Below, one piece after another: positions 871-18,270 of a stretch of 61,364 nucleotides of DNA. Numbering within the stretch: the stretch's first letter is position 1; each line of letters starts with the position of its first letter. The position numbers and the translations under genes are program-made. This stretch comes from Muribaculaceae bacterium (GTDB lineage Bacteria; Bacteroidota; Bacteroidia; Bacteroidales; Muribaculaceae), in contig JAFVCX010000145.1 in the NCBI GenBank assembly GCA_017478855.1, forward strand, positions 1 through 61,364, given 5' to 3'. The notes beneath the pieces were generated by a model that worked only from the letters and a program-made list of their open reading frames with translations, searched no databases and was not told the DNA's origin.

Positions 871-1527
871 TTATTTGGCGTAGGGCTTGATGGCATCGCG
901 CCAAATGAGGTAGCCTTCGCCCACAAGGTGCAGGCCGTCGTTGGTCAGCTCGGCCCGCAGGTGTCCGTTGTCGTCCACGAAGAGGGGGTAGAGGTTGATC
1001 CACGTGACTCCGCGGCGGCGTGCCACGGCCTCAAGGGCGCGGTTGCCGTCGACCACCACTTGGTCGCGCCCCACGAGGTATTTCCACTCACGCACGTCGT
1101 TGTTGAAGGGCAGCATGGACTGGAGGTAGATTTTGGTGCGCGGGGAGCGGGTCTGGATGAGGGTGATGAGCTTCTCCATGGCGCGGCCGATGCTGTCGCC
1201 ATCGACACCATGCGACACGTCGTTGACCCCGCTGAGGATGAAGATTTTCTTGGGCTGTCCTTTGAGGATGGGCTCCATGCGCTCGTAGAGGCCTTGCACG
1301 ATGTCGCCAATGATGCCGCGGTTTTTGACGTGGCGGTTGCCGAGCAGTTCGTTCCACTCGGCACCGTCGGTGAGGCTGTTGCCCAGCATGATGATGTCGC
1401 TTTTGCCCACGGGTAGGGTTTGGAAGTGGGTGGCACGCCGGGCGTAGTAGACATCTTGGTTGGCTTGCGCCATGCCGGCGGCGAAGCCGATTGCCGCCAG
1501 CAAGAGGGTGAGTGCGATTTTTTTCAT
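871..1527 (-). CDS. Secreted SGNH/GDSL esterase
   Basis: 218 residues with a signal peptide (MKKIALTLLLAAIGFAAGMAQA). The SGNH blocks are visible: GNSLTDG at 49-55 with nucleophile Ser51, a Gly around 71, SGVND with Asn102, and DGLH with Asp197 and His200. These give the full Ser-Asp-His triad and oxyanion-hole residues. The family includes carbohydrate O-acetylesterases. It is the last gene of a twelve-gene operon, 21 bases after murQ. Because bacterial MurNAc is often O-acetylated at C6, the same hydroxyl a MurNAc kinase must phosphorylate, removal of that acetyl group is a plausible role. That is inference; a sialate or xylan deacetylase would look the same at this level. Confidence 0.85.
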   Translation of the reverse strand: MKKIALTLLLAAIGFAAGMAQANQDVYYARRATHFQTLPVGKSDIIMLGNSLTDGAEWNELLGNRHVKNRGIIGDIVQGLYERMEPILKGQPKKIFILSGVNDVSHGVDGDSIGRAMEKLITLIQTRSPRTKIYLQSMLPFNNDVREWKYLVGRDQVVVDGNRALEAVARRRGVTWINLYPLFVDDNGHLRAELTNDGLHLVGEGYLIWRDAIKPYAK

Positions 1528-1548
1528 AACGCTATGGGGAAAAGGAGG

Positions 1549-2367
1549 TTAGGAGCGTCCTCGATAGGCATCTTCGGCTTTTTTGACCGAGCCGTGGAGC
1601 AGCAGGAGGCGTTTGGCCTCGTCGTAGCCCAGCCCGAGGTCGTCGACGAGCATGCGTGTGCCGCGGTCGACGAGCTTTTGGTTGGTGAGCTGCATGTTGA
1701 CCATCTTGTTGCCTTTGACGCGCCCCATCTGAATCATGACGCTGGTGGAGATCATGTTGCAGATGAGTTTTTGGCCCGTACCGCTCTTCATGCGTGAGCT
1801 GCCGGTGACGTATTCGGGGCCTACAATCATCTCGATGGGCACCTCGGCCACTTCGCTCACGGGGGCATCGGGGTTGCTGGTAATGGCGGCTGTGAGGCAG
1901 CCGTGGGCGCGAGCGTCGCGCAAGGCTCCGATCACACAGGGCGTGGTGCCTGAGGCGGCGATGCCGATGACGGTGTCTTTGTCGTTGATGCCAAACTCTT
2001 GCAGGTCTTTCCAGCCTTGCTGCAAGTCGTCTTCGGCGTTCTCAACGGCGTTGCGCAAGGCGTAGTCGCCGCCGGCGATGAGGCCGATGATCCAGCCCGG
2101 ATCCATGCCGAAGGTGGGGGGTATCTCGCTGGCATCGAGCACGCCGAGGCGTCCGCTTGTGCCGGCACCCATATAGAAGATGCGTCCGCCTTGCTTCATG
2201 CGCTCGACGATGCCCGTGACGAGCTTCTCGATTTGTGGAATCGCCTTTTGCACGGCATCGGCCACTTTGTGGTCTTCCTGATTGATTTCGGTGAGGATTT
2301 CGTGCACCGATTTTTTCTCGAGGTCGTTATAAAGCGAGGGTTGCTCGCTGATTTTTACAAAAGCCAT
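1549..2367 (-). CDS. murQ: N-acetylmuramic acid 6-phosphate etherase
   Basis: 272 residues. MurQ cleaves the lactyl ether of MurNAc-6-phosphate, giving GlcNAc-6-phosphate and D-lactate in the cytoplasm. The SIS-domain signature GAGTSGRLG is at 67-75, followed by LDASEIPPTFG with Glu81 in the place of the catalytic glutamate (Glu83 of the E. coli enzyme). A second signature region SNPDAPVSEVAEVPIE and GPEYVTGSSRMKSGT are also present. Length is slightly below the usual 290-300. It sits directly downstream of the kinase (21 bases) and upstream of the esterase (21 bases), and the D-lactate it makes is the expected substrate of the dehydrogenase encoded three genes earlier. Confidence 0.97.
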   Translation of the reverse strand: MAFVKISEQPSLYNDLEKKSVHEILTEINQEDHKVADAVQKAIPQIEKLVTGIVERMKQGGRIFYMGAGTSGRLGVLDASEIPPTFGMDPGWIIGLIAGGDYALRNAVENAEDDLQQGWKDLQEFGINDKDTVIGIAASGTTPCVIGALRDARAHGCLTAAITSNPDAPVSEVAEVPIEMIVGPEYVTGSSRMKSGTGQKLICNMISTSVMIQMGRVKGNKMVNMQLTNQKLVDRGTRMLVDDLGLGYDEAKRLLLLHGSVKKAEDAYRGRS

Positions 2368-2388
2368 TGGTGTTGAAAGGGGTGATGA

Positions 2389-3234
2389 TTAGTTGTTGCT
2401 GTGATACTTGATGAGGCCTTCCATGGGATTTTGGATGATGGTTCCCACGGTTACGCCGCAAGCCTCGGCTGCCTCGGTGAGCACCGAGCGGAAGTGGTTG
2501 GCGATGGAGCCAACGAAGTTGCATGGCAGTTCTTGGTAGTTTTTGTAGCTGGTCACGTTGCGTACGAAGAAGGCCTTGAAAGCGCGCAGCACGAGGTCGT
2601 GGATGGACGGTTCGCTGAGGTTTTCTTTGAGGAATGGAGCGAACTTGGCCAGATAACGGTTGGCTGCCGGCTGGCGATAGACGGCGTTGATGATGGCCGT
2701 GCGGTCGGTGTCGAACTGCTGGAGGAATTTCTCGCACAGCGGTTCGGGCAGTTGCTTCTTGAGCACATCGCCCACGAGCAGCTTGCCCATGACGGCGCCA
2801 CTACCTTCGTCGCCCAAGATGTAGCCCAGCGGCGACACGTTGTCGACCACGCGTTGCCCGTCGTAGTAGCACGAGTTGGAGCCGGTGCCCATGATGCAGG
2901 CGATGCCGGGCTGGCGTCCGCACAATGCTCGTGCGGCGGCGAGCAGGTCGCTTTCGACCTCGATGGTGGTTGCGGTGGGCATGTTGGCTTTGAGAGCGTT
3001 CACCACTTGATTTTTGATTTCGTCGTTGATGATGCCCGCGCCGTAGTAGTAGATTTCGTCCACTTTATAGCTCACCAAGTGGGGCATCAGTTCCTCATGG
3101 ATGCGCTCGGTCATTTCGTCCTGCGTGAGCAGCAAGGCGTTCATGCCGGTGGTAAAGATTTGAGCAATTTTCTCGTTTCCGTTAAGCAGGCACCAGTCAA
3201 TCTTGGTGGAGCCGCAATCAGCAATTAAAATCAT
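2389..3234 (-). CDS. murK: BadF/BadG-family MurNAc/GlcNAc kinase (MurK-like)
   Basis: 281 residues of the ASKHA sugar-kinase fold. The N-terminal phosphate-binding loop DCGSTKIDWCL is at about residues 6-16, a second acidic/Gly motif GTGSNSCYYDG is near 115-125, and GDEGSGAVMGKLL follows. This family includes eukaryotic N-acetylglucosamine kinase and bacterial MurK, which phosphorylates MurNAc and GlcNAc at C6. Position immediately before murQ and after the MurT-like protein matches the MurT/MurK/MurQ set known from Tannerella forsythia. There is no PTS MurNAc transporter here, so phosphorylation must follow uptake. A pure GlcNAc kinase cannot be excluded. Confidence 0.85.
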   Translation of the reverse strand: MILIADCGSTKIDWCLLNGNEKIAQIFTTGMNALLLTQDEMTERIHEELMPHLVSYKVDEIYYYGAGIINDEIKNQVVNALKANMPTATTIEVESDLLAAARALCGRQPGIACIMGTGSNSCYYDGQRVVDNVSPLGYILGDEGSGAVMGKLLVGDVLKKQLPEPLCEKFLQQFDTDRTAIINAVYRQPAANRYLAKFAPFLKENLSEPSIHDLVLRAFKAFFVRNVTSYKNYQELPCNFVGSIANHFRSVLTEAAEACGVTVGTIIQNPMEGLIKYHSNN

Positions 3235-3273
3235 AATATCAGTGTTTTTTAATAATTAATTCGGGATTGGTTG

Positions 3274-4419
3274 TTATATCTTGATGTAGATTTTCTTTTT
3301 ATAAAGAATGTAGCCAAAGAGCCAAGTGATGCACACAAAGGTGATGGCATAGAGGCACGATGCGGCCTCGGGGGTGGTGGTGACGGCACTCCATCCGTCG
3401 TAGATGAGCGAATGAATGGTGATGGGCTTATCGTCGCTGCCCATGCCCAGCCGCACGGTGCCAAAAACGATGGAGAGAATGGCGCCCATGAGGTAGCAGA
3501 ACAGAGGATTCACTCCGAACGACTGGAAGAAGCGGCACCAGCGGTTGTGACCTTTGACATCGATGAAATAGATGAGCATGCCCAAGATGCACGAGGCCAT
3601 GCCGCAGGTGATGAGCACGTAGCTGCTCGACCACATCTTTTTGCCACAGGGGATGCCATATTGCAGCAGCCAGCCCACGAGCAGCATCACGCTGCCCCAA
3701 AGCAGAGCCTTGCCCATGCGGGTGTTGTTGTCGCGAATGTCGATGAGCATCTTGCCCACCATAAAGCCAATGAGCACATGGGCAATGCAAGGCAGGGTGC
3801 TGAGCAGGCCTTCAGGGTCAAGGGCCAAGCCGTTGTCGTGATACATGTGGGCATCGCCCAGCACGCTTAGGTCCACACGCGAGAGAATGTTGTCGAGCGA
3901 GAACTCATAGCCGTTGCCTGTGCCGAGGATGATGGCATAAACAACCAAAATCAGGCCGATAATCCACGGGATGAACTTGGCACGGAAAGTCACGGCAATC
4001 ACCGAGCCGAAGAAATAGACCAAAGCCAAACGCTGGAACACACCGAGAATGCGCAGATGGCCAAACATATCGTCGAAAAACGAGCTGTCGGGGTTGTAAA
4101 GTCCGCGCAGCCACATGCCAAACCACTGCACCATCCAGCCAATGAGAAACAGAATGACGGAGCGGCGCACAATTTTCCACAACAAGCCGCCGTTCCAAGT
4201 GAAATTGAACTTGCGCAGCGAGAAATACATGGCCACGCCCATAACGAACATGAAGAAGGGAAACACAAGGTCGGTGGGAGTGAGCCCGATCCACTCGGCG
4301 TGCTCTAAAGGCCGGTAGAGATGGCTCCATGTGCCCGGATTGTTGACCAACAGCATGCCTGCTATGGTGATTCCTTGCAAAATGTCGACTGCGAGAAGCC
4401 GTTTGTTGTCTTTAGCCAT
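3274..4419 (-). CDS. DUF5009 / HGSNAT-like membrane protein, MurT-type MurNAc transporter candidate
   Basis: 381 residues with about ten hydrophobic segments. The start MAKDNKRLLAVDILQGITIAG and the block LTPTDLVFPFFMFVMGVAM are typical of the heparan-alpha-glucosaminide N-acetyltransferase-like (DUF5009) family, as is FGVNPLFCYLMGA near the C-terminus. A member of this family is, from memory, the MurT inner-membrane MurNAc transporter of Tannerella. The gene lies 39 bases upstream of the MurK-like kinase and 24 bases after the dehydrogenase, so import of free MurNAc for MurK is the favoured role. An acetyltransferase acting on a cell-wall amino sugar is the main alternative. Confidence 0.8.
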   Translation of the reverse strand: MAKDNKRLLAVDILQGITIAGMLLVNNPGTWSHLYRPLEHAEWIGLTPTDLVFPFFMFVMGVAMYFSLRKFNFTWNGGLLWKIVRRSVILFLIGWMVQWFGMWLRGLYNPDSSFFDDMFGHLRILGVFQRLALVYFFGSVIAVTFRAKFIPWIIGLILVVYAIILGTGNGYEFSLDNILSRVDLSVLGDAHMYHDNGLALDPEGLLSTLPCIAHVLIGFMVGKMLIDIRDNNTRMGKALLWGSVMLLVGWLLQYGIPCGKKMWSSSYVLITCGMASCILGMLIYFIDVKGHNRWCRFFQSFGVNPLFCYLMGAILSIVFGTVRLGMGSDDKPITIHSLIYDGWSAVTTTPEAASCLYAITFVCITWLFGYILYKKKIYIKI

Positions 4420-4443
4420 ATTAATTTGAGTTTGTCAAGAAAA

Positions 4444-7233
4444 TCAGTTAGGTTGTGTCACTTCATCAATGAGATAGATGAGCGACTGGTAGGGGATTCC
4501 GCTATGAGTGGTAAGTCCTATCTCACAAGTGCGGCTATTGCTGAAACCACGTTTTGCTCCTGATGCTTCAATGGCTGCCCGCAAGTGGCGCAGCGCATAA
4601 GCGTTGAGCTCGGGGTGAGTAAATCCTTTGTCGCCGGCAAAAGCGCAGCAGCCCACCCCCTCGGGCAGTACCACACGGGTGGAACAGCGACGAGCCAACG
4701 AGAGAATTTTGTCGTTTAACCCCATCAGGCGTGTGGAGCAAGTGAGATGCAGGGCTACGGGTTCGTCGGTGGGCTTGAACGTGAGTTCACCGGCCACATA
4801 GTCGTGGATGAACTCCATGAGTTCAAGCGGTTTCACTTGCTGCATGTGCTGGCGCATGCGGTGCAGGCAAGGACTCTGGTCGCACACAATGGGGTAGCGA
4901 CCATTCTCGGAAACTTGCAGCAGGGCGGCTTCGAGTTCGGCCGTTTTGCGCAAAGCCACGTCGGGCATGCCCTTGCTCTCCCAAATCATTCCACAGCACA
5001 AGCCGCTCATGCCTTGCGGGAAGATTACCTCCCAGCCACATCGTTGCAAGAACTCCACCACTTTGTCTACCAAGTCGGGCCGGGCCGCTCCGGCTGCGCG
5101 TCCCATAGTTTGGTTGAGGCAGCTGGGGAAATACACCACTTTTTTGCCCGACGCTTGGCGGTTGGCCGATAGTTTTGTTTTGCGGTGTGGCTTGGGCATG
5201 GCCGGAGTCCATTGCGGCAATCCCAAGTGATGCATGGTTTTTCCGATGGCGGTCACGGCTTTGTCGCCCATGAGGCTATGAGCCGCGTCGGCCACATAGA
5301 GCAACGATTTCAAACCATCTTTAATGATGGCGAAATGGCTGCCTGCAAAGTTGCCCACGCTGTGCGCCCATGTGCCGGGCCGATGCATCTCGTTGCGCAG
5401 GTCATGAGTCAGTTCGCCCACGTTGATGCCCATCGGGCACGAGGTGCTGCACAGGCCATCGGCTGCACAAGTCTGCTCGCCCAGATAGCGATATTGTTTT
5501 TCAAGCCGTGCCAACCGCTGCGGGTCTTCGCCCGTGGCACGCAGACGGGTCATTTCGCGTTGCACGATGATGCGCTGGCGGCTCGAAAGGGTGAAACCAC
5601 TGCTCACGCAATTCACTTCACAGAAGCCACACTCGATGCACTTGTCCACGTGGTCGTTGGTGAGTGGCATGGGCTTGATGTCGCTGATAAAACTGGTGGG
5701 ATCCTCGTTGAAGATGACACCCGGATTCAGTATGTTGCAGGGGTCAAAAAGACGTTTCACCTCTTGCATGATGGCATAAGCCTTGTCGCCCCACTCTTTG
5801 CGCACATAAGGAGCCATATTGCGTCCTGTGCCATGTTCTGCCTTGAGCGAGCCGTCGTATTTATCCACAACCAAATGCACAATTTCGTCCATGAGATTGC
5901 GATATCGTTCCACATCTTGGGGCGTTTCGAATGACTGCGCGATGATGAAGTGATAGTTCCCTTCAAGAGCGTGACCATAGATGCAGCTGTCGTCGTAGCC
6001 GTGCTGCTCAAGCAGGCGAGCCAAGTCCATGGTTGCGTCGGGCAGATCCTCGATGTGGAATGCCACATCTTCTATAATAACGGTAGTGCCCGGCGGCCGG
6101 GTGCCGCCCACGCTGGGGAATATACCCGAACGAATGGCCCAGTATTTTCCGTATTCAGCCGGGTCGCTGGTGAAACGTGCCGGCACATATAGCTCAAAGG
6201 GCCGCAAAACGGCGCTGATGACCGCGATGTTGGCTTCAAGCTCTTCGGGTGAGTCGGCAAAGGTTTGCACCAGCACGGCAGTGAGGTTCTTTCCTGTGGG
6301 GTCGTCCACGCTTTCGAGTGATTTGCGGTCGAGAATTTCGGCGCAATGCACCGGAGCCTGCCTCATGACCACAACGGCTTCGCAAGCTCGCCGCATTTCG
6401 GAGAAATAGAGCATGGCGCTGGCCCGATGCGGATATAGGTGGCCCGTCGACATGGTGAACTGACTGGCAAAACCCAACGTGCCCTCACTGCCCACCATCA
6501 GGTGTGTGATGATGTCGAAGGGGTCGGTATAGCGTACGAAAGGAGAAATATTCAGTCCCGTGACATTCTTGATGGCATATTTGCGCGTGATGCGTTCCAC
6601 CAAATCTTTGTCGGCCATCACTTGGTCGCGCAATCGCTCGATGCCCGCAATCACCTCCGGGTGCGACTGGCTGAAGGCGGCTCGGCTGCCGGCATCGCCA
6701 GTGTCGAGCACCGTGCCGTCGGCCATGACTATGCGCATGGAGCGCATCATGCGGTCGCTATTGGCATGCGTGCCGCAGCTCATTCCGGAAGCATTGTTGA
6801 TGACAATGCCACCCACCATAGCCGAGTTTTTCGATGCGGGATCGGGTGTGAAGGTGCGCCCTAACGGAGCCAATATCTTGTCGACTTGCGCGCCCACAAG
6901 CCCCGGCTGCAGAGTGATGGCTGAAGCGTCAGAGGAAATATGGTAGTCCTCCCAGTGCTTCCCTGCCACGATGAGGATAGAGTCGGTCACCGTTTGGCCG
7001 CTCAAACTGGTGCCGGCGGCACGAAAAGTGACGGGCAGACGCATTTCATTAGCGATGGCCAGCAATCGACTCACTTCGGCCTCGTTTTTGCTGCGCACCA
7101 CCACTTGAGGCAGGTGGCGATAGAAGCCGGCGTCGGTGCCCCACGCCAACAAGCGCAAATCGTCGGTATAGATGCGGTCGGCCGGAATGAATTGGCCTAT
7201 CCGTTTCACATATTGCTGATGTCGGTCGGTCAT
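4444..7233 (-). CDS. FAD-linked, Fe-S D-lactate dehydrogenase (Dld-type fusion)
   Basis: 929 residues. Order of domains: FAD-binding type 4 (about 40-260, with FRAAGTSLSGQ and NNASGMSCGTHANSD), FAD-linked oxidase C-terminal domain (to about 530, with EHGTGRN), two ferredoxin-like Cys clusters (CIECGFCEVNC and CAADGLCSTSCP, about 540-620), and a CCG-type cysteine-rich domain pair (CCGMIWES and CCAFAG, about 730-880). This layout is that of respiratory D-lactate or D-2-hydroxyacid dehydrogenases that feed electrons to quinone. Its location between namZ (9 bases) and the murT-like gene strongly suggests it oxidises the D-lactate set free by MurQ to pyruvate. D-2-hydroxyglutarate dehydrogenase (YdiJ type) is the alternative by sequence alone. 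No hydrophobic anchor was seen, so it is likely a peripheral cytoplasmic-face enzyme. Confidence 0.88.
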   Translation of the reverse strand: MTDRHQQYVKRIGQFIPADRIYTDDLRLLAWGTDAGFYRHLPQVVVRSKNEAEVSRLLAIANEMRLPVTFRAAGTSLSGQTVTDSILIVAGKHWEDYHISSDASAITLQPGLVGAQVDKILAPLGRTFTPDPASKNSAMVGGIVINNASGMSCGTHANSDRMMRSMRIVMADGTVLDTGDAGSRAAFSQSHPEVIAGIERLRDQVMADKDLVERITRKYAIKNVTGLNISPFVRYTDPFDIITHLMVGSEGTLGFASQFTMSTGHLYPHRASAMLYFSEMRRACEAVVVMRQAPVHCAEILDRKSLESVDDPTGKNLTAVLVQTFADSPEELEANIAVISAVLRPFELYVPARFTSDPAEYGKYWAIRSGIFPSVGGTRPPGTTVIIEDVAFHIEDLPDATMDLARLLEQHGYDDSCIYGHALEGNYHFIIAQSFETPQDVERYRNLMDEIVHLVVDKYDGSLKAEHGTGRNMAPYVRKEWGDKAYAIMQEVKRLFDPCNILNPGVIFNEDPTSFISDIKPMPLTNDHVDKCIECGFCEVNCVSSGFTLSSRQRIIVQREMTRLRATGEDPQRLARLEKQYRYLGEQTCAADGLCSTSCPMGINVGELTHDLRNEMHRPGTWAHSVGNFAGSHFAIIKDGLKSLLYVADAAHSLMGDKAVTAIGKTMHHLGLPQWTPAMPKPHRKTKLSANRQASGKKVVYFPSCLNQTMGRAAGAARPDLVDKVVEFLQRCGWEVIFPQGMSGLCCGMIWESKGMPDVALRKTAELEAALLQVSENGRYPIVCDQSPCLHRMRQHMQQVKPLELMEFIHDYVAGELTFKPTDEPVALHLTCSTRLMGLNDKILSLARRCSTRVVLPEGVGCCAFAGDKGFTHPELNAYALRHLRAAIEASGAKRGFSNSRTCEIGLTTHSGIPYQSLIYLIDEVTQPN

Positions 7234-7242
7234 CTTTGGGGA

Positions 7243-8475
7243 TTAATAGAGGTAGTATTTGGCCGATTTCAGGCGGAAGGCTTCGGCATCTTTCGTCCAA
7301 TATCCAATGATGTCTTCCACTTTATATCGCTTGGTGAAACGCTCGCGAATCTCTTTGGTGCCACACACTTTGTCGAACATGGCATAGCGTTTGGGATTTT
7401 GCTCAAAGATTTTCACATCGGGGTACAACTCGTGCATCACCTGTAAAAAATAGAATTGCGTGAGGGTGAGGTTGGCCCTATCCACATCGGTGATGTAGGT
7501 TTGCACTCCATGCACTTCTTTTTTCTCTTGGTTCACGTCCACGCTGGTGACAAAGAAAGGTTTCACATTGATGGGGCGGAACTCCAGCCCTGGCAGATGC
7601 AGCGCATTCCTGGCGTCGCACACCTTATCGGCATCGGCCCAAGTGGCGCAGAAAAGCTGGAAGGGCAGCGTGTAGCCAATGCCCGTATTGAAAATGTACA
7701 GCTCACCAATGATGCCGCTCAAAGGATAGAAAAATGCGCTTTCGGGCGAGGGAATCTGAGGTGAGGGCAGCACCCACGGCATGCCGGTGTCGCGAAACTT
7801 CATGTCGCGCGTCCAGCCTTGCATGGGAATCACCGTGAGGCGAGCTTTCTTGGCGGTGTGGCCTTCTTCATTGAGGAAACGTGCCAGCTCGCCCGGAGTG
7901 AGGCCATAGAGGTATGGAATGGCATATTTGCTCACGAATGAGAAATAGCCTTCTTCCACCAAATTACCCTCCACTTTGTTGCCTCCCAGTGGATTGGGGC
8001 GGTCGAGCACCATAAATTCCTTGTCATTCTCGGCGCAGGCTTCCATGCACACACCCATGGTGGCATAGAACGTGTAGCTGCGGCAGCCAATGTCTTGTAT
8101 GTCATAGACGAGCACATCAATGTCTTTTAGCATTTCGGGCGTGGGTTTGTGGGTTTTACCGAAAAGAGAATACATTTTGATGCCCGTCTTGCTATCAACC
8201 TCATCGCCCACAGCATCGCCGGCATGAGCATTGCCACGCACGCCATGCTCAGGGCCGTAAAGAGCCACCAGTTTCACCCCCGGAGCTTCATTGAGGATAT
8301 CGACGGTGCTTTTCAGATTGTTGTCGATACCGCTGGGGTTAGTCACCAGCCCCACGCGCTTGCCTTGCAACTGGGCAAAACCGCCATCGCGCAGCACTTC
8401 GATGCCGGGCTTAACCACGGCGCTGGCCACCACGGCCACCAGCGCAAGAGCCACACTCAATATATATCGTTTCAT
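7243..8475 (-). CDS. namZ: NamZ-type exo-beta-N-acetylmuramidase (DUF1343, GH171)
   Basis: 410 residues from the ATG at 8475, which places a signal peptide (MKRYILSVALALVAVVASA) at the N-terminus; an earlier in-frame ATG would overlap the preceding gene. DUF1343 landmarks: GKRVGLVTNPSGID, LYGPEHGVRG, YDIQDIGCRSYTF and LDRPNPLGG. The founding enzyme, B. subtilis NamZ (YbbC), removes terminal MurNAc from the non-reducing end of peptide-free glycan chains. Here the product would be free MurNAc in the periplasm, ready for the MurT-like transporter. It follows the AmpG-like gene by 19 bases. Confidence 0.92.
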   Translation of the reverse strand: MKRYILSVALALVAVVASAVVKPGIEVLRDGGFAQLQGKRVGLVTNPSGIDNNLKSTVDILNEAPGVKLVALYGPEHGVRGNAHAGDAVGDEVDSKTGIKMYSLFGKTHKPTPEMLKDIDVLVYDIQDIGCRSYTFYATMGVCMEACAENDKEFMVLDRPNPLGGNKVEGNLVEEGYFSFVSKYAIPYLYGLTPGELARFLNEEGHTAKKARLTVIPMQGWTRDMKFRDTGMPWVLPSPQIPSPESAFFYPLSGIIGELYIFNTGIGYTLPFQLFCATWADADKVCDARNALHLPGLEFRPINVKPFFVTSVDVNQEKKEVHGVQTYITDVDRANLTLTQFYFLQVMHELYPDVKIFEQNPKRYAMFDKVCGTKEIRERFTKRYKVEDIIGYWTKDAEAFRLKSAKYYLY

Positions 8476-8494
8476 CGGTCGAGAAGTTTTAAGA

Positions 8495-9820: not shown

Positions 9821-9836
9821 TATCTTGATTTTAAGG

Positions 9837-11195
9837 TTAATATTGCTTGTCGATGATGGCTCCGGGGAAGTAGTGAGCCAAAATTTGCCGGTAATTATAG
9901 CCTTTTGCTCCCATCACAGCGGCTCCAATTTGACACAGCCCCACGCCGTGTCCCCAGCCTGCGCCGCGCAGCACAAACTTGGCAGGATAGCCGTCGGCAT
10001 CCACGTCGTGTCGCTCGACTACGAAGGCCGAACTGTAGAGGGCTGTTTCGCTCAGCGCATATCGGATGGTGAGTTCTTTGCCTATGGTGCGAGTGAGTTT
10101 CTCGCCCACAATTTTCATTTTATATAGACGGCCACTCTTGCCGCGAGCTATGGGCTGCAGGTCGCGAATGCGGCCGTAGTCCACTCCCGTGCGCTTGGCA
10201 ATCAGAGCCGAAAGCTCGTTTTGTGTGTATTCAACCTTCCAGCGATAGAAATCGGTGGTTTCTTGGTCGTAATCGTTTAGCACTTGACTTAAAATGCCGG
10301 CATCGCGTGTGTTGCAGAATGCGTCGGGACAGGAAAGAATCCACTCCTCGGCCGCTTCTTCGCGGGTGAGGTCAGGGAAGTCGTTTTCGTCCTCTCCATC
10401 ACGTCGCGCTTCCAAGTAGTCGTAATGCGTGTCGTCCCAGCAGTTTTCAAATTCTTCCATCACACCGCCGCACGACTTGCTGAAACGTGCGTCGCACAAT
10501 GCGCCTTCGTGGGTGAGCACCTCGCCCCAAGTGGCCGCAATGGCTTGGCGCACGGTTTCGGTCGAGGCGCGGGTGATGCCCTGATAACGCTGGCAATGGT
10601 CGTCGGCGCACACGTCGAAGTTTACATGGTCGTCGCGACCCCACCACTTGATGGCCTCGTCGGCATCACCACCGCCCAAGTCGGGCTGCTCGTCGCTCAT
10701 GACCGAGCGGTTGCCATTGGCGGCCAGTTGTGCCGCGGCACGTTGTTCGTCGGTTTTGATTTGCGCCAGCAGCCAGCTGCGCGAAATTACGGCATGCGCT
10801 TTGAGCAGCTCTAATGAGGCGTGCGCACTCATTTCACTTGAAATCACACTCAACAAGTAATCTTCCACCGGAACGATGTTGATGGCCGTCACTTGGCCAT
10901 TTTCCACAATGAGGCGCAGCGCACCCTTGAAGCTTTGGTCTTCTTTGCGCCGCCAGTGAAAACTCACGCCTATGGTCACGTCTTTGATGGTGAAGAAATC
11001 TGTGTCGGGGTCTGAGGGCGAGAGAATCCATTCGGCTGTGCATTTGCCTTGTAGCAGCACATGATGGCCTTCGGTTCCGGCCTTGAAAACACCCGAAAAA
11101 ACTTCACCGTGACACTGATAGGAGCCATGTAGTTCAAACTCGATGGCCGGAGCGTTGACGATGCCCACTTGAACGGTTGGAACAGGGTTGTTCAT
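9837..11195 (-). CDS. SpoIID/LytB-domain glycan-strand enzyme
   Basis: 452 residues. The SpoIID domain is shown by VPVEDYLLSVISSEMSAHASLELLKAHAVISRSW (about 125-160; cited as VEDYLLSVISSEM and LKAHAVISRSW), the CQRYQG block and the C-terminal GAGWGHGVGLCQIGAA. SpoIID enzymes cleave glycan strands from which stem peptides were removed. The amidase at the head of this operon would make exactly that substrate. No obvious signal peptide precedes the domain (start MNNPVPTVQVGI), which is odd for an enzyme that should act outside the cytoplasm. An Asp/Glu-rich insertion lies around 170-290. Lytic transglycosylase activity is inferred from the family. Confidence 0.85.
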   Translation of the reverse strand: MNNPVPTVQVGIVNAPAIEFELHGSYQCHGEVFSGVFKAGTEGHHVLLQGKCTAEWILSPSDPDTDFFTIKDVTIGVSFHWRRKEDQSFKGALRLIVENGQVTAINIVPVEDYLLSVISSEMSAHASLELLKAHAVISRSWLLAQIKTDEQRAAAQLAANGNRSVMSDEQPDLGGGDADEAIKWWGRDDHVNFDVCADDHCQRYQGITRASTETVRQAIAATWGEVLTHEGALCDARFSKSCGGVMEEFENCWDDTHYDYLEARRDGEDENDFPDLTREEAAEEWILSCPDAFCNTRDAGILSQVLNDYDQETTDFYRWKVEYTQNELSALIAKRTGVDYGRIRDLQPIARGKSGRLYKMKIVGEKLTRTIGKELTIRYALSETALYSSAFVVERHDVDADGYPAKFVLRGAGWGHGVGLCQIGAAVMGAKGYNYRQILAHYFPGAIIDKQY

Positions 11196-11219
11196 GAGTG
11201 TGATGATAATTTGAAGGTT

Positions 11220-12182
11220 TTAATTGGAGGTTTTTATAAAATTGTCCATTATGCGAGCTATGCCGGTGTCGTCCACACATAGTTCATCATAGATTTGCTG
11301 CACAAGTGTGGCATTGAGCCGCTCAAAGTTGGCAGGTTCGGGCACGGCCCACACGCCGCCCATGTCGACCGATGCCGGGCTGATGAGCAACTGGTCCGCT
11401 CCGGGTCCAAAACATGCAGGACGATGCTTGCGGCGCGGAAAAACCGCCACATTGAGGTAATCTCCGTCGCGCCAAGCCAGCACATTAACCATAGGTTCCA
11501 GCTGTGAATCGGGCTGCGACATGCGCATCGCCAGTAGCAACCGGGAAAAATATAGGCTGGCCAGTGGCAAGCCGGCGGCGCGAATGAGGAAAACGGGGCG
11601 TCCCAAGCGGTGCGTATAGCCTATGAAGCCCTCGTCGCACACCTCCATTTGTGCCTCGGCGGGCCACAAGTCGGGTTCTGTGATTTCGTCGCATAACGGC
11701 AGAAAACCTTTGCATCCTGCTTGAAAATGCATGTGATCGGGAGCCGAGGCACCGCAACGAGCACCGTTGAAAAACACCACCCAATGGGGCAATTCAGCGG
11801 CAAGCTGCAGCATGTGGTCGATGCGTGCGAGGGGCCACAGTTGCTGTGGCGTGTGCTCCAAAGCCGAGATGGTGAGGTGGCGCGGGAAAATGGGGTAGGG
11901 ATTCACTTGAATCTTATAGTCACCCCACCTCACCATCTCTTGCTCTTTGGGCTGGTTGTGGCTGCACAAGAAACAAGGTCGGGCGGCCAATGAAGCGGCA
12001 TCGGTGCGTGCCGCACTTGAGCGACGGCGCACACTGTTACATTGTAGCACCACGGCGGCGTGCTCGAGCGCAATGTGGCGCAGCTGCACTTGCTCAAGGG
12101 CTGCAAAGTTGTTGCGCACCATGGGCCAATCGCGCAGCTGTCGTTCAAACAAAGCGTCGACTTCTTGTGCAAGATGTGTCAT
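11220..12182 (-). CDS. DUF4922 protein, HIT-like (GDP-sugar phosphorylase-related)
   Basis: 320 residues from the ATG at 12182 (10 bases after the glycosyltransferase gene). The HIT-type nucleotide-binding motif appears as DHMHFQAG, preceded by FFNGARCGAS; Cys pairs occur in RPCFLCSHNQ. This resembles the plant/animal GDP-hexose phosphorylase branch of the HIT superfamily. Substrate unknown. Its place between two glycosyltransferases and the SpoIID gene is unexplained by MurNAc catabolism; it may handle an activated sugar made or used by the glycosyltransferases. No signal peptide; cytoplasmic. Confidence 0.75.
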   Translation of the reverse strand: MTHLAQEVDALFERQLRDWPMVRNNFAALEQVQLRHIALEHAAVVLQCNSVRRRSSAARTDAASLAARPCFLCSHNQPKEQEMVRWGDYKIQVNPYPIFPRHLTISALEHTPQQLWPLARIDHMLQLAAELPHWVVFFNGARCGASAPDHMHFQAGCKGFLPLCDEITEPDLWPAEAQMEVCDEGFIGYTHRLGRPVFLIRAAGLPLASLYFSRLLLAMRMSQPDSQLEPMVNVLAWRDGDYLNVAVFPRRKHRPACFGPGADQLLISPASVDMGGVWAVPEPANFERLNATLVQQIYDELCVDDTGIARIMDNFIKTSN

Positions 12183-12192
12183 AAAAAGAGAT

Positions 12193-13668
12193 TTATTTCT
12201 TGTTAAGAGCAATGCGTGCTTGGAGTTCCCAAGTGCGGATGCGATCTTTATACAAGTTGTTGCGATTCATCTTTTCCACATCGAGGCTGGCATCGCTGTT
12301 GTCGTCCCAGCGGCGGCACAGATACACGGGTTCATACACGCGGCCAATCTGATAGATACGCGAGATATTCAATCCCAGCGCATAGTCTTCACCATAGCTG
12401 GTGTTAGGAATCTTCACATCGCGCAGCACGGGTGTGTAGAATGCGCGGGGTGCGCCCAGTCCGTTGATGCGCAAGGCATTGTTGCGGCCATTCTCAGGAG
12501 TCCACTCGCGGTGGTCGATGATGCCCGGCGCAATCATGTTGAGGTTGATGTCGGTCATCATATAGGTACCCACCACCATAGCCACGTTTTGCTTGTAGAA
12601 GGCCCGCACCATTGTGGTGAGTGTGTTTTCATCTTTGTACATATCGTCGCTGTCGAGCTGCACGATGAACTTGCCGGCTTTCTCGTGATGCGCCGCCAGA
12701 TTCCAATAACCGCCAATGCCCATGTCGTAATAGTCGGCAATGATGTGGATGAGGCGCGGGTCATCTTTATACTCATCGATGGCCTCGCGGGTGCCGTCGG
12801 TCGAGAAATTATCCACCACCATGAGGTTGAACTTGAAATCTGTTTTTTGACGCAACACGCTCTCGATGGCATCGCGAATGGTGCGGATGCGGTTGCGCAC
12901 GGGAATCATCACAGTGGCCTCAACCTCGAAGTTGTCTTCTCCAAACTCAATGTGTTTGAAGTTGGGTTTGCCGTCGATTTCGGGCACCAAGTATCCACCA
13001 ATTTCTTTCAGGTGCTCGGTGCAGGCAGCTTCCATCTCGATTTGGCGGCCACGGTTGCGCGGATCCACATAATCGAAGATTTTCTCGCCGCTCTTGCGCG
13101 TGTCAAGCTCCACATCGCTGTAAAGGAATTCGTTGATGTGGGTGATTTGGGCAAACTGGCTTAACTTAAGGCGCAGGTCATAGAGGCCGGCGAACTCGTA
13201 GTCGGCTTTCATGGCAGCGGCGGCCTTCTTGAAGCAGCAACCGCAGAAGAAAAGCACTGAGCCAAAGTCGAAGTCGTCGCGCAACGAGCCAAACTGATAA
13301 TCGATCACGGGAGCTTTGTCGGCACCTTTATCGGTCACGTTATAGTGGTCGGCATAGAGCATGCCGCTCTGTGTGTCATCGGCGAGTTTCACAAAACGCT
13401 CCACGGCAAAGGGGCCAAATTTGAGCGTGTCGAACTTGGTGTAGAGCATCACATAGTCGCTGTCGGCCTTTTCGGCAATAGCTTTGATGGTTGCGCTGGC
13501 TGTGAGATTCTTCACAGCAATCACTTCGCAGCCTTCAATAGGAGCCTCGGCATTTTCGCCTGCCAGCAGATAGATGTTGTTGACCAGTTCATTTGCCTTG
13601 AGGTTGTCAACGGTTTGTCCGGCCTGTTCGGCGTTGACAAACGGAATGAAGCAATTAATTCTTCCCAT
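12193..13668 (-). CDS. Family 2 glycosyltransferase, paralog A
   Basis: 491 residues starting at the ATG at 13668 (MGRINCFIPFVN). The GT-A core lies in the middle: VMIPVRNRIRTIRDAIESVL followed by VVDNFSTDGT, with the acidic metal-binding motif LDSDDMY. The N-terminal 200 residues (with MLYADHYN and GSLRDDFDFGS) look like a second, degenerate glycosyltransferase-like lobe. It is a tandem paralog of the next gene upstream, sharing [24 protein letters not shown] and many other blocks. No membrane segment, so a soluble or peripheral cytoplasmic enzyme. Acceptor unknown. Confidence 0.85.
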   Translation of the reverse strand: MGRINCFIPFVNAEQAGQTVDNLKANELVNNIYLLAGENAEAPIEGCEVIAVKNLTASATIKAIAEKADSDYVMLYTKFDTLKFGPFAVERFVKLADDTQSGMLYADHYNVTDKGADKAPVIDYQFGSLRDDFDFGSVLFFCGCCFKKAAAAMKADYEFAGLYDLRLKLSQFAQITHINEFLYSDVELDTRKSGEKIFDYVDPRNRGRQIEMEAACTEHLKEIGGYLVPEIDGKPNFKHIEFGEDNFEVEATVMIPVRNRIRTIRDAIESVLRQKTDFKFNLMVVDNFSTDGTREAIDEYKDDPRLIHIIADYYDMGIGGYWNLAAHHEKAGKFIVQLDSDDMYKDENTLTTMVRAFYKQNVAMVVGTYMMTDINLNMIAPGIIDHREWTPENGRNNALRINGLGAPRAFYTPVLRDVKIPNTSYGEDYALGLNISRIYQIGRVYEPVYLCRRWDDNSDASLDVEKMNRNNLYKDRIRTWELQARIALNKK

Positions 13669-13676
13669 AATGAGTG

Positions 13677-14981
13677 TTATTGATTGTTTTGATGAATAAT
13701 TCGGTTGAGTTGTTGCCGCGCTTGGAGTTCCCAAGTGCGAATGCGGTCTTTATACACATTGTTGGCGTTCTCACGCTCCAGAGTCAGGTCGCTATCGGTA
13801 TTGTCGCTCCAGCGACGTCCCAGCGTCATCACCTCCCACACGCGTCCCACTTTCCAGCGTCGGGAAATCATCAGCCCCATGGCATAATCCTCGCCATAAC
13901 TTGTGCCGGGCAGGCCTATGCTGCGATAAATGGGGGTGAAGAAGGCGCGGGGACCACCTATGCCATTCACGCGCAGCAGGTTGTTGCGTCCATTCTCATC
14001 GGTCCACTCTCGGTGAGCTATGATGCCCGGAGGAATTTCTTCGAGATTCTCGTTCACAATTTTATAGGAGCCTACCACCATAGCCGCACGGGTTTCATAG
14101 AACCGAGCTACCATAGTTTGCAGCACATGAGGGCCGGCAAAAAGGTCGTCGCTATCAAGTCCTATGGCAAAACGTCCGCAACGATTGTCGTAGATGGCTT
14201 GGTTCCAGCAGCCGCCAATGCCCAAATCGTCGCGATCGGGGATGATGTGCACAAGCCGGGGGTCGTGGGAGAACTCATGGATAGCCTCGGTGGTTCCATC
14301 GGTTGAATGGTTGTCCACGATGATGAGGTTATAGTTAAAAGGTGCCTCTTGCGTCAGCACGCTCCTGATGGCATCGCGAATGACGGTAACTCGATTGAGC
14401 ACAGGAATCACGACCGAGCACTCCACAGAAAAGTCACCTTGGGTAAGATCCACTTCTTCTTGCAAGGAGGGTTGCAGATAGGCTCCAACCTGTTTTAGGT
14501 GCCATGTGCACATGGCCTCCATCTCGCGCTGCGCCGCTGCCGCATCGGGAGCCTGATAGTCAAAGATTCGCTCACCGCTGCTGCGGTTGTCATGAGGGGT
14601 GTCGGTGTAGAGGAACTCTGGAATGTGGATAATCGCTCCCATTTGCGACAACGCTAACCTCACGCCATAGAAATTGGCATGCTCCAGCCGTCCAAAAACG
14701 GAATGAATCATTTCTTCGGCTTGTGCCAATTCACGAGTCCTTATGAGGGCTAACGAGCCGAAGTCGAACTCATCGCGCAGACTGCCTGACTGGTAGTCGA
14801 TGAGTGGATGCTTGACCAGCCTGCCGTCTTCTCCGCGAGTAAAGTGGTCAGCATAAAGCATGACAGCTCCCGTGTCGTGTGCAATCACAAGCATTCGCTC
14901 AAGGGCTTTATAGCCCAGCTCAAAGGGGGTGTCGCGCAAAGCAACAAGCGTATAATCGTCGGCCGTGGTGAGTCGTTTCAT
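13677..14981 (-). CDS. Family 2 glycosyltransferase, paralog B (shorter N-terminus)
   Basis: 434 residues. Aligns along its whole length with paralog A ([74 protein letters not shown]) but lacks about the first 60 residues of A. The 3-prime ends of the two genes are also close at DNA level, so this is a tandem duplication. 12 bases follow the amidase stop and 8 bases precede paralog A. The metal-binding acidic residues are kept in both, so both may be active; different donors or acceptors are possible. Confidence 0.83.
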
Positions 14982-14993
14982 GTCGCGTGGTGA

Positions 14994-17900
14994 TTACTTC
15001 TCAAAATAGTTGAGGGCGTTTTGCATCAGTTCCTGACGTGCCCGGGCGTCCATCACTTCGAGAGGTACTCCGGTGACAAGCGTGCGATAAGTGCCGCGGT
15101 CGCTCACGATACCAGCCGGGATGTTGTTTTCGCTATAACGCATGAAGGTGACACCCTGCTTGTCGCTGGCACGAATGGCATCGGGCGACTCGACGGCATA
15201 GCACTTGCCATTGAGTGTATTGACGAACGTCCAACGGTCGCCATCGGGCATCATTTGGTTAGGAGTGGGCACGGTATAGACTTCGCCACGCTGGGTAGCC
15301 ATTCCATCGACCCACTCAAAGCCCAGCACATTGCGGGCAAACGTGGTTTCCTCGCTATTGACCGAATCCTTGTCCCAAATGTCGCTGCCCACGTAGGCAC
15401 CGGTCACAATCAGGTTGCTGCCGCTCTCGGCGCTTGTTTGGAGGGCGGCCATCAGCGCGGGAGTGAACGCCTTGAAGCGGTTGGGCATAGCTCCACGGCC
15501 CGTGGGCACTTCTTTTTGCTTGCCTAAAATCAGATCGACCGCTTTGAAGCCGGTGAGTGTTGTGTGGCGTGCCTCGGCAGCCTGCACGCTGGTGGAAATG
15601 AACGAATATCCGGCCTGCATAATGGCCTCGCCGTGGGTGGCGGGATAATCGAAGGTGTTGCCGGCAATCACTTTGGTTTCGTGATTGCTGCGGCAAGCGC
15701 CAAAGCCCGGCGCATCGTCATCGCGCCACGGCAAGTTGCGGCGGAACTCGCGTTGCGAGCCCAAATAGTTGATTTGTTCCATATAAGGAACTCCGTGGTC
15801 TTTCTCATCATAGAAGCCGGCAATCTCACCGTTTTCGAACCAATCGGGGCCGCTCACTCGCGTGAATCCGTTCACAACCATCACGGTGCCTTTGCTGTTG
15901 GGCGCAATGCCCAACGAAAGCGTTTCGCTGGGGAAACTGCGTCCGCCATCGTTCAGGGCAATGATTTTGTAACTATGAATGTCATTGTCGGCGATAGTGA
16001 CCACATGGCATGGGTCTTCCACCACAGCCACTTCGCGGAAACCGCCGTTCAGTCCCACACGCTCACACACCACATACTTGGTGGGCATAGCACCGTCGGC
16101 ACTCAACTCGTCGCGAGTGGGTTGCCATGTGAGCAGGAATGAACCCTGTGTGGATGCTTGAGCAATTTCGAAAGAATTCACAGGCAATGGCTGCACCACA
16201 TAGTCGCGGTGGTCACGTTTGGCAATGAATTTCAAGATGCCTTTGTAGATGGCACGGCTCACGTCGAAGCGGAATCCCGGGTCAAGGCCGTATTTCATGT
16301 CGGCAAAATTCTGGTGCGAGAGCAACTCCATGAGCAGGGCGGGCACTTCGGGCACGCGGGCTTCATAGTAGGATTTGTCCCACATGCCGCGGCGTGTCCA
16401 GTTGGGCTCCCATTTGGCACGAATGTCGCCCACCACTTGACTCGAAACGATGTCGGCAAACTGACGTGACAGTTCGCGTGGCGTGCCGTCTTCATATTTT
16501 CCGAAACGCTTGCCGTTCTTGGTGGTGCAGTAAATGAGCAGCGTGCCAATGATGTCGTCGTTGGGCGTTGTGCCGGCATCGGTGTGCAGACAGAACGACA
16601 CGTCGACGGGAATGTTCAATCCTTTTTGCTTGGGCAGCACACTGCTGCCTCCGGCCAAATAGTTCACCCACTCGCCACGGCTGCGGTAATCGTCCACATA
16701 GTCGTTGATACCATCGCTGGTACTGTACACCTCGTGAGGAAATCCCGCCCACTGCAAATAGTAACGGCTGCCAATGTGGAACCACGGATGTTCACCGCTG
16801 CCCACATATTTGTAGTCGATACCCTCTTTGCCCAAATATCGCTCGTCTTTGTTTTTTGCTGCAATTTGTTTATTTTCTTCGGTGGGCAATGCCACACGGC
16901 GCACGATATTGCCCTTGCCGCCGCCCACACGAATTGCATCGGCCGTGATGATGCCATTTTTAGTGTCGCTGAGGTTGCTCAACGTCACCACGTCTTTATT
17001 CAAGCCCTTGGCCAGCTGGAAAGATCCGAGATACACCCAAACGCCACCTCCCATCGTTTGGTCTACTTTGAATTGCTGGCTGCCATTGAGCGACCGCACG
17101 GTGTAGAGCGCGTCTTTCACGCTGCCGGCCACTGTCTTGTAGCTCACATAGAGCGCAAAGGTACCCGCTTCGGGCATGTCGACACTCCATGAGGCCGTGC
17201 TCACTTTTTTCTTGTCTTTGGTGGCTTTCACTTGGCGGTAGGTCCCCTCGCCAAAGGGATTCTCAAAGTCTTTATATTCAGCGCGTGCATAGCTGAAACC
17301 GCTTTCTTTGCCGTTTTCCCAAGCGTTTTTTCCGTCGGTTTCGGCGTAGTGGGTTTGTGACAGGCCACCGTCGTTGTCCACGACCACGCCAAAGTTGTGT
17401 GTGTCGCGCTCACGAGCGTCCCACACATAAGCTCCGGCATTTTCCAGCATGGGCATGATGAAAGGAATCATATAGCTGTGTGTGTACATGTCCTCCACTG
17501 TTTGGAACATGCGGGCGCGTTGCCATTCCCATCGATTGAGCACCGGCTCGAAGTACCAACCGTGGCTGGGCCAAACGGCCACGATGTTGCCGTCAAGGGC
17601 TTTTTTGTAGTGGCGTGTGGGGTCGAGTTCGGTGATGAACGGAGCGTGGCGGCGTTTGTAGCCGGTGTCGAAGTTGCTAAAGTAGTTCTCGATGTCGGCT
17701 CCGGCTATGCTCAGTTGCACGTCGGCCTTGGCATATCCGGCACCTAAGGCAGCACGCATGTCGCGTTTCATCTCATCGATGGAGGCCACCGTAAACGGCA
17801 CATCGCCAAAGTTTTCGCTCAGATCCACCTTCAGCGTGTTGCCTTCGTAAGAGGCGCTGCGCACTTTTAGGGCTCCGATGCCCATGTGCTCAGGCAAGTA

Positions 17901-18020
17901 TTTTTGTGTTACTTGTTGTAAACTTTGTGTCTGTTCTTCGCTCAGGTTTTGTGCTGCCGTAGTCCCCCAAACCAAAAGGCCGGTTGCCAGCAAGGTGAGT
18001 GTTTTTTTCGCTATATTCAT
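14994..18020 (-). CDS. Secreted N-acetylmuramoyl-L-alanine amidase with golvesin-like insertion
   Basis: 1008 residues from the ATG at 18020, chosen because it begins a signal peptide (MNIAKKTLTLLATGLLVWG, cleavage near TAAQ). An Amidase_3 zinc enzyme that is split: candidate ligands/catalytic residues are His153 (PSHGW), Glu176 (TVEDM), His479 (CLHTDAG) and Glu565 (ALLMELLSH). About 300 residues separate the second and third; part of that insertion (about 205-375, ending ITADAIRVGGG) looks like a golvesin C-terminal-like beta-sandwich. A fibronectin-III-like stretch follows near 605-700 and a further alpha/beta domain fills the C-terminus. It heads the operon and would strip stem peptides to give SpoIID and NamZ their substrate. 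Proteins like this are often misnamed xanthan lyase. Confidence 0.85.
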   Translation of the reverse strand: MNIAKKTLTLLATGLLVWGTTAAQNLSEEQTQSLQQVTQKYLPEHMGIGALKVRSASYEGNTLKVDLSENFGDVPFTVASIDEMKRDMRAALGAGYAKADVQLSIAGADIENYFSNFDTGYKRRHAPFITELDPTRHYKKALDGNIVAVWPSHGWYFEPVLNRWEWQRARMFQTVEDMYTHSYMIPFIMPMLENAGAYVWDARERDTHNFGVVVDNDGGLSQTHYAETDGKNAWENGKESGFSYARAEYKDFENPFGEGTYRQVKATKDKKKVSTASWSVDMPEAGTFALYVSYKTVAGSVKDALYTVRSLNGSQQFKVDQTMGGGVWVYLGSFQLAKGLNKDVVTLSNLSDTKNGIITADAIRVGGGKGNIVRRVALPTEENKQIAAKNKDERYLGKEGIDYKYVGSGEHPWFHIGSRYYLQWAGFPHEVYSTSDGINDYVDDYRSRGEWVNYLAGGSSVLPKQKGLNIPVDVSFCLHTDAGTTPNDDIIGTLLIYCTTKNGKRFGKYEDGTPRELSRQFADIVSSQVVGDIRAKWEPNWTRRGMWDKSYYEARVPEVPALLMELLSHQNFADMKYGLDPGFRFDVSRAIYKGILKFIAKRDHRDYVVQPLPVNSFEIAQASTQGSFLLTWQPTRDELSADGAMPTKYVVCERVGLNGGFREVAVVEDPCHVVTIADNDIHSYKIIALNDGGRSFPSETLSLGIAPNSKGTVMVVNGFTRVSGPDWFENGEIAGFYDEKDHGVPYMEQINYLGSQREFRRNLPWRDDDAPGFGACRSNHETKVIAGNTFDYPATHGEAIMQAGYSFISTSVQAAEARHTTLTGFKAVDLILGKQKEVPTGRGAMPNRFKAFTPALMAALQTSAESGSNLIVTGAYVGSDIWDKDSVNSEETTFARNVLGFEWVDGMATQRGEVYTVPTPNQMMPDGDRWTFVNTLNGKCYAVESPDAIRASDKQGVTFMRYSENNIPAGIVSDRGTYRTLVTGVPLEVMDARARQELMQNALNYFEK

Positions 18021-18097
18021 TGTGCTCTGTTTATATTCTTGGTAGTGTGGTGGCACTGCACGTAACGGTGCGTTATTGCGCATAGTCATACACACTA

Positions 18098-18243: not shown

Positions 18244-18270
18244 ATGCCTGCCGCCATGCAAAGCGGTGTT

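Follow-up and report, generated by a model that had tools for sequence, protein, structure and literature searches.

The closest described relative of the system reported here is the salvage operon of Tannerella forsythia, in which nine genes (Tanf_08345-08385: xanthane lyase, gtf, gtf, lytB, ampG, ybbC, murT, murK, and murQ) form one transcript as judged by reverse transcription PCR (RT-PCR; PMC5388701). The substrates of its AmpG are disaccharides of N-acetylglucosamine (GlcNAc) with N-acetylmuramic acid (MurNAc) or anhydro-MurNAc (GlcNAc-MurNAc and GlcNAc-anhMurNAc; PMC7670621), and a second, slow MurNAc kinase, K1058, is encoded directly upstream of the cluster (PMC10465942). T. forsythia and Fidelibacter are known MurNAc or peptidoglycan auxotrophs (PMC7670621; PMC11652737). 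Here we analyse an operon of 12 minus-strand open reading frames (ORFs) that runs from position 18020 down to 871, directly after asnS, in a 61,364-nucleotide stretch of DNA of a Muribaculaceae bacterium (GenBank assembly GCA_017478855.1, contig JAFVCX010000145.1, positions 1-61,364; hereafter the window). The window has a G+C content of 52.97% and lies on contig C48 of a 2.31-Mb draft genome (G000) rated 92% complete, whose genus we infer to be Sodaliphilus. We consider it likely that this operon is the Sodaliphilus version of the T. forsythia salvage operon, acting as a MurNAc supply line in a predicted MurNAc auxotroph.

A variant of the T. forsythia ampG-murTKQ operon

All 12 ORFs open with ATG, at the upper coordinates given in Table 1, and the 11 intergenic gaps are, in order, 12, 8, 10, 24, 16, 19, 9, 24, 39, 21, and 21 nt, which bears out a first-pass annotation of this DNA as twelve genes with 8-39 base gaps. 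That annotation had also proposed a peptidoglycan-sugar salvage operon, a reading supported by the exported amidase, the exported NamZ, the AmpG-like importer, MurK, and MurQ, and had regarded the arrangement as undescribed. The latter claim fails because the T. forsythia operon, with the same gene order, is published as an RT-PCR-proven transcript (PMC5388701); novelty of arrangement is thereby confined to the dehydrogenase, the GDSL gene, and perhaps DUF4922. The locus is a variant of the T. forsythia ampG-murTKQ operon: it shares the order of nine genes, from the xanthane-lyase-annotated gene through two gtf genes and lytB/SpoIID to murQ, as well as a host without MurA and MurB, and it differs in a dehydrogenase gene between NamZ and MurT, an explicit DUF4922 gene, and a terminal GDSL gene. 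Genes were matched by name and order, with sequence comparison for MurK and K1058; the window's amidase was matched by place to the 'xanthane lyase' gene (PMC5388701, Fig. 2 legend). T. forsythia is a mouth bacterium, whereas the window's genus lives in gut and rumen. A further difference is that asnS replaces the K1058-position kinase in the window, although many genus relatives do have a kinase upstream of the amidase; the one tested (L035, 595-1452) scored 331.5 bits against K1058 and 234.2 against MurK. The PDB name of its best match pointed to NagK, an assignment that we rejected because the matched protein is K1058 (PMC10465942).

For a comparison of gene order, 101 related genomes (61 of the window's genus and 40 outside it) were searched for DUF4922 as the locus anchor, which matched in 72 of them. 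Sixty loci were fetched around this gene; 47 represent the 58 congeneric relatives with a match, and 13 come from other Bacteroidales families. The genus order is amidase-(GT)-GT-DUF4922-SpoIID-AmpG-NamZ-[dehydrogenase]-MurT-MurK-MurQ-(GDSL), where GT denotes a glycosyltransferase. This comparison, suggested in the first-pass annotation, showed order and strand to be kept wherever covered, with no violation in the 47 genus loci; the complete amidase-to-MurT run was recovered in 42, and the other five are interrupted by contig ends. The conservation of gene order exceeds chance expectation. A single GT is usual, the second being present in just 9 of the 47 loci, and GDSL follows MurQ in 25, many of the others ending before that place. 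Of the 13 loci from outside the genus, 7 keep GT-DUF4922-SpoIID-AmpG unbroken and 8 keep DUF4922-SpoIID-AmpG (L045 being counted with its fused gene). AmpG homologues reach 600-690 amino acids (aa) in L034, L037, L067, L070, and others, the window's AmpG having only 441 aa, and in the operon of genome G060 (L060) the amidase and GT genes are each present twice.

Joint absence of MurA and MurB

MurA was searched with TIGR01072, full MurA being counted at 379 bits or more, and MurB with PF02873. Neither profile matched in the window's genome, and this search found neither enzyme in 47 of the 61 genus genomes; among the 31 that are at least 90% complete, 22 have neither, the window's genome and G060 (a single contig of 3.34 Mb) being two of these. 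The 13 genus genomes with MurB are also the 13 with full MurA, and in every one of them the two genes are neighbours. Outside the genus, MurA was found in 39 and MurB in 37 of the 40 genomes. Weak MurA matches (19-31 bits) in some negative genomes are AroA-like, and the one in G060 coincides with a PF00275 match. PF00275 matched in 100 of the 101 genomes, among them 47 of the 48 in the genus that lack full MurA/MurB (the miss is G056), where the matched gene is not MurA, and MurC matched in 101 of 101, at full-length strength in 59 of the 61 genus genomes. Because PF00275 and MurC were recovered from nearly all genomes, we conclude that the search works and that the wall is still made. The absence extends to the family: in a Muribaculaceae sample of 247 genomes, MurB was found in 151 and MurA above its cut-off in 152. 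MurB is absent from the other 96, and of the 171 genomes that are at least 90% complete, 110 have it and 61 do not. In 18 of 30 genera of the family, one or more genomes carry MurB.

Two genus genomes may carry altered genes. A C-terminal MurA fragment (65 bits) occurs without MurB in G053 (C58, 38676-38906) and is a possible remnant, and in G025 (L178, 5435-7721) MurB spans only ~225 aa, with a gene that by eye appears recombinase-like just upstream; murB may be disrupted there.

The missing genes could in principle be an artefact of incomplete metagenome bins, as most of the named matches are metagenome-assembled genomes (MAGs), mainly from rumen and gut, and presence is patchy among close relatives. 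We regard this explanation as very improbable, however, since G060 lacks both genes on its one contig and G005 lacks both while rated 100% complete. The murB-murA pair, where present, sits on contigs measuring 19.8-397 kb (12 of the 13 were fetched) and not on bin-shy fragments, and nearly every genome of the set yielded MurC and the PF00275 gene.

A candidate route to UDP-MurNAc and predicted MurNAc auxotrophy

Elsewhere in the window's genome (L195, 1429-3623; G000:C73), a gene for an APH kinase fused to a RapZ C-terminal domain overlaps a gene for a MurU-like nucleotidyltransferase. From their sequences these encode a candidate AmgK-MurU pair, with RapZ_C as a possible glucosamine-6-phosphate sensor domain. 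The pair also occurs in G060, G010, and G011 (families were assigned for G000 and G060), and the two best solved relatives of the MurU-like protein include an N-acetylmuramate alpha-1-phosphate uridylyltransferase. The arrangement resembles AmgK-MurU salvage (NF045759, NF045761) in that a C1-kinase-type protein and a MurU-type nucleotidyltransferase are encoded together, but differs in the fusion of the kinase to the RapZ domain and in that both proteins fall below the curated cut-offs. MurNAc escaping MurK might be turned by this pair into uridine diphosphate (UDP)-MurNAc. As MurA and MurB are absent, MurC is kept, and the AmgK/MurU-like pair is the only visible route to UDP-MurNAc, we predict MurNAc auxotrophy for the organism, with the operon as its supply line. 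The salvage operon proposed in the first-pass annotation stands, but the loss of MurA and MurB, which was missed there, changes what the operon is for.

This prediction bears on Sodaliphilus pleomorphus, the species that G060 probably represents: its G+C content is 54.5% in a 200-kb sample, compared with 54.4% in print for S. pleomorphus, for which a closed genome is reported (PMC7738495). As described there, the species grows slowly and on solid medium only, is boosted on the plate by other isolates, and forms irregular cells of up to 50 µm; the genus name derives from loving a companion, and the main text of the article does not contain the words 'MurNAc' or 'muramic'. Such companion-boosted, pleomorphic growth fits MurNAc auxotrophy. 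Fidelibacter multiformis offers a parallel in that it has no peptidoglycan synthesis of its own, uses muropeptides, and has a supply-dependent shape, although it belongs to another phylum and also lacks further wall-precursor steps (PMC11652737). None of the matches listed in the open-access literature, with subscription papers outside the scope, dealt with MurNAc auxotrophy in Muribaculaceae.

On balance, we lean towards the broader reading that Sodaliphilus, together with many other members of the Muribaculaceae, can no longer make MurNAc de novo and draws it, as an auxotroph, from wall fragments of its neighbours, through the operon and the AmgK/MurU-like route, with a SpoIID acting in the cytosol and a dehydrogenase drawing energy from the lactate of MurNAc. 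Several observations weigh against the supply-line reading itself. Because 12 of the 13 MurA/MurB-bearing genus genomes have a DUF4922 match too, operon and auxotrophy are not coupled, and Fitch parsimony requires eight MurA/B state changes over 48 tips, which may partly reflect MAG gaps. Scores of several key proteins are low: the MurU-like protein reaches 147.4 against a cut-off of 250 for NF045761, still its best model; the AmgK-like kinase reaches 36.9 (G000) and 64.7 (G060) against 550 for NF045759 and matched no solved AmgK; and the AmpG-like protein reaches 176.3 bits with TIGR00901, its best-ranked model, under the cut-off of 350. That the genus is Sodaliphilus and that G060 is S. pleomorphus are themselves inferences, and S. 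pleomorphus has been shown growing on rich agar (PMC7738495), a complex medium that may supply MurNAc.

The shared DUF4922 locus of the MurA/MurB-bearing genus members, this growth on rich agar, and the catabolic character of MurK and MurQ would also suit ordinary recycling or catabolism, in which MurNAc is made by unrecognised enzymes and the operon recovers the cell's own turnover or feeds on other bacteria. We find this improbable, given that MurA and MurB are missing jointly, not singly, in the 47 genus genomes, with one more carrying a MurA fragment only, and that the family counts of the two enzymes are nearly equal, as expected for loss of the step and not for replacement of a single enzyme.

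To our knowledge, MurNAc auxotrophy has been reported from few bacteria. If the auxotrophy reading is true, MurNAc limitation would account for the dependence of S. pleomorphus on companions and for its odd cell shapes, so that a hitherto unexplained dependence becomes testable; wall turnover would be a public good in gut and rumen, and indifference to MurA inhibitors is predicted. Should a large part of this main gut family depend on the peptidoglycan of its neighbours, this would help explain its poor culturability and offer a simple culture supplement. The parts that deserve work are the predicted auxotrophy, its breadth, and the putatively cytosolic SpoIID-DUF4922 pair.

Exported enzymes and cytosolic MurNAc catabolism

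Export was assessed with a simple hydrophobicity score of N-termini rather than with SignalP. Above the threshold were 92% of 48 amidases, 96% of 50 NamZ, and 100% of 26 GDSL proteins, compared with 1% of 75 MurK-like and 3% of 29 MurQ proteins as cytosolic controls. In the amidase, H153 is conserved in 47 of 47 sequences (one row being incomplete at its end) and E176, H479, and E565 in 48 of 48; these we take to be the zinc-ligand and catalytic H/E/H/E residues of Amidase_3. NamZ, which has an exported-type N-terminus, passes the cut-offs of both NamZ_N (284.7 bits) and NamZ_C (117 bits). Outside the inner membrane, the amidase would strip stem peptides and NamZ, judging from its family, would free MurNAc from glycan ends; AmpG would import GlcNAc-(anhydro)MurNAc disaccharides, the published substrates of the T. 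forsythia protein. The window's MurK scores 315.7 bits against T. forsythia MurK and 225.7 against the paralogue K1058, and MurQ passes PRK05441 (364.8 vs 168) and narrowly misses TIGR00274 (300.7 vs 302). In the cytosol, these two enzymes would convert MurNAc to GlcNAc-6-phosphate and D-lactate. The GDSL product is possibly a peptidoglycan O-acetylesterase.

MurT as transporter or acetyltransferase

The best solved relative of MurT is the acetyltransferase HGSNAT (E = 2.7e-18), whose His297 aligns with MurT H40, present in 45 of 45 sequences. His297 is the acetyl-carrying catalytic residue of HGSNAT, and NagX relatives have been proposed to be transacetylases, with T. forsythia MurT (TfMurT) called a distant relative (PMC9007349). 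The first-pass annotation had sugars imported by two routes; because MurT keeps the acetyl-carrying histidine, this is not secure. MurT might import MurNAc, as claimed for T. forsythia, or might acetylate sugars across the membrane. That it is a transmembrane N-acetyltransferase for de-N-acetylated wall sugars, and no transporter, is a tentative alternative that draws on family membership and the shared catalytic histidine. The window's protein scores 119.6 bits against the NagX model NF046061, under the cut-off of 480, and it sits in a MurNAc context rather than one of chitin or glucosamine. Against this alternative stands the rescue of an E. coli murP mutant on MurNAc by co-expression of TfMurT and TfMurK (told in PMC5790795).

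A putative D-lactate dehydrogenase

The gene between NamZ and MurT encodes a protein with FAD_binding_4, FAD-oxidase_C, 4Fe-4S, and CCG domains, in which GHxxxGNxH and EHG motifs are present. Across 20 sequences the metal-ligand motifs are invariant (20 of 20), as are 17 of the 18 cysteines past residue 500. Our best guess is that its substrate is the D-lactate released by MurQ, which it would oxidise to pyruvate; in the peptidoglycan auxotroph Fidelibacter, MurQ-derived D-lactate from MurNAc-6-phosphate is likewise oxidised by a D-lactate dehydrogenase (PMC11652737). Its relatives are lactate, glycolate, and D-2-hydroxyglutarate enzymes, the solved ones including glycolate oxidase and D-2-hydroxyglutarate dehydrogenase, so that the protein might act on another 2-hydroxyacid, such as D-2-hydroxyglutarate or glycolate, its place in the operon being incidental. 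The five relocated genus copies inspected, with no peptidoglycan neighbours recognisable by eye, point the same way and count against a D-lactate role, as does absence of the gene from this position in 26 of 44 informative genus loci (it is present in 18, and 3 loci are cut there). The copies of G062 and G079 likewise lack such neighbours by eye. On a tree built from four proteins with 48 tips (46 from the genus and 2 outgroups), the gene changes state twice. We nevertheless think another substrate rather unlikely, as NamZ adjacency is found in three families in three arrangements (in L187, of another family, the two genes overlap by 8 bases, and in L038, of a third, they are divergent neighbours) and the neighbouring MurQ yields D-lactate.

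The GT-DUF4922-SpoIID block

According to the first-pass annotation, SpoIID cuts bare glycan strands. Only 1 of 56 operon SpoIIDs lies above the export threshold, as do none of 60 DUF4922 proteins and none of the GTs, and the sole exception (L081, 2.25) has the usual starting motif and a weak uncharged stretch with no clear signal peptide. All 13 SpoIID-bearing DUF4922-negative genomes, in contrast, have SpoIIDs with signal-like N-termini; the operon SpoIID is thus probably cytosolic, which speaks against the proposed role. Second SpoIID copies in G067, G088, and G097 have signal-like N-termini, and four further copies in DUF4922-positive genomes do not, one being near the line (1.9); the copy of G070 was left out of this comparison. 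The SpoIIDs of Bacteroidales seem to fall into two subfamilies, one exported and one signal-less and linked to DUF4922. Export from an alternative start codon was considered and rejected, as P6, V10, G11, and I12 are invariant and DUF4922-negative homologues show clear signal peptides.

The operon SpoIID passes PF08486 (82.9 vs 23) and not TIGR02870 spore_II_D (112 vs 234.75), and Glu121 and H200-C201-Q202 are conserved across 56 sequences, keeping the motifs of solved SpoIIDs. It therefore has the domain and residues of a periplasmic SpoIID lytic transglycosylase and lacks the signal peptide or membrane anchor. DUF4922, with its invariant HxHxQ motif and a weak profile match to the diadenosine tetraphosphate (Ap4A) phosphorylase 4i5t (E = 1.4e-5), is a probable HIT/GalT-branch enzyme, either a nucleotidyltransferase or a phosphorylase; the literature found on DUF4922 concerns plant GDP-galactose phosphorylase. 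A role as MurU substitute is not supported, since a MurU-like gene exists and families with MurA/B carry DUF4922 too. In L045 (7903-10266, G068), a single 787-aa protein joins DUF4922 to SpoIID.

Most likely, the block would trim or remodel imported glycan fragments in the cytosol. As part of the broader reading, and with the same slight preference, the pairing of a signal-less SpoIID with a HIT-family enzyme would be a salvage step not met in the literature that we have seen. A somewhat doubtful alternative is that GT-(GT)-DUF4922-SpoIID shares the promoter but is a separate module for the biosynthesis of an oligosaccharide or glycoconjugate in the cytosol. It would agree with the cytosolic N-termini of all three kinds of protein, with the fusion in L045, and with L046 and (without the GT) L053, where the fetched stretch shows the block with AmpG but neither NamZ nor a Mur gene. 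It agrees less well with the position of AmpG after DUF4922-SpoIID in the 8 non-genus loci, with the retained SpoIID residues, and with the co-transcription of Tannerella gtf and lytB with Mur genes (PMC5388701).

Locus features

Pfam cut-offs are passed by SpoIID, NamZ_N/NamZ_C, Glycos_transf_2 (two genes), DUF4922, MFS_1, FAD_binding_4/FAD-oxidase_C, Fer4_8, and GDSL. Of the families listed in the first-pass annotation, SpoIID, NamZ, AmpG-like (MFS_1), and MurQ (PRK05441) hold at their cut-offs, whereas Amidase_3 (19.8 vs 27 bits), DUF5009 (20.7 vs 25), and BadF (20.6 vs 31.5) fall below theirs and are backed instead by the conserved ligand residues, the HGSNAT match, and the T. forsythia MurK match, respectively. 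The DUF4922 gene had been left unnamed.

Table 1. Coordinates of the operon genes and flanking features in the window, with the basis of each assignment.
Feature	Position	Strand	Basis
asnS, upstream of operon	18271-19659		
Intergenic region after asnS, probable promoter; TAnnTTTG element at 18105	18021-18270	-	motif scan
Amidase, exported, N-acetylmuramoyl-L-alanine type; Amidase_3 split by Golvesin_C insert	14994-18020	-	profile, residues, N-terminus
GT2 glycosyltransferase A; without transmembrane segment, probably cytosolic	13677-14981	-	Glycos_transf_2; no signal or transmembrane segment
GT2 glycosyltransferase B; DxD in 58 of 58	12193-13668	-	Glycos_transf_2
DUF4922, HIT-superfamily-like; HxHxQ (H150, H152, Q154) and CxxC	11220-12182	-	Pfam, weak profile match to 4i5t
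SpoIID/LytB-type enzyme without signal peptide, probably cytosolic	9837-11195	-	PF08486, conserved residues, N-terminus
AmpG-like MFS permease	8495-9820	-	MFS_1; TIGR00901 below cut-off
NamZ exo-beta-N-acetylmuramidase, exported	7243-8475	-	NamZ_N/NamZ_C, N-terminus
FAD + 4Fe-4S + CCG 2-hydroxyacid dehydrogenase, proposed D-lactate dehydrogenase	4444-7233	-	domains, motifs, NamZ adjacency
MurT/NagX/HGSNAT-family membrane protein; H40 matches HGSNAT catalytic His297	3274-4419	-	profile/structure-relative alignment
MurK MurNAc kinase	2389-3234	-	match to T. forsythia MurK
MurQ MurNAc-6-phosphate etherase	1549-2367	-	PRK05441
Exported GDSL/SGNH hydrolase, possibly peptidoglycan O-acetylesterase	871-1527	-	GDSL Pfam, N-terminus

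Scans of the window for sigma-70 promoters and terminators gave no more matches than in shuffled sequence. TAnnTTTG, presumably the Bacteroidales-type promoter consensus, occurs at 22 sites on the operon strand across the window, one of which lies ahead of the operon.

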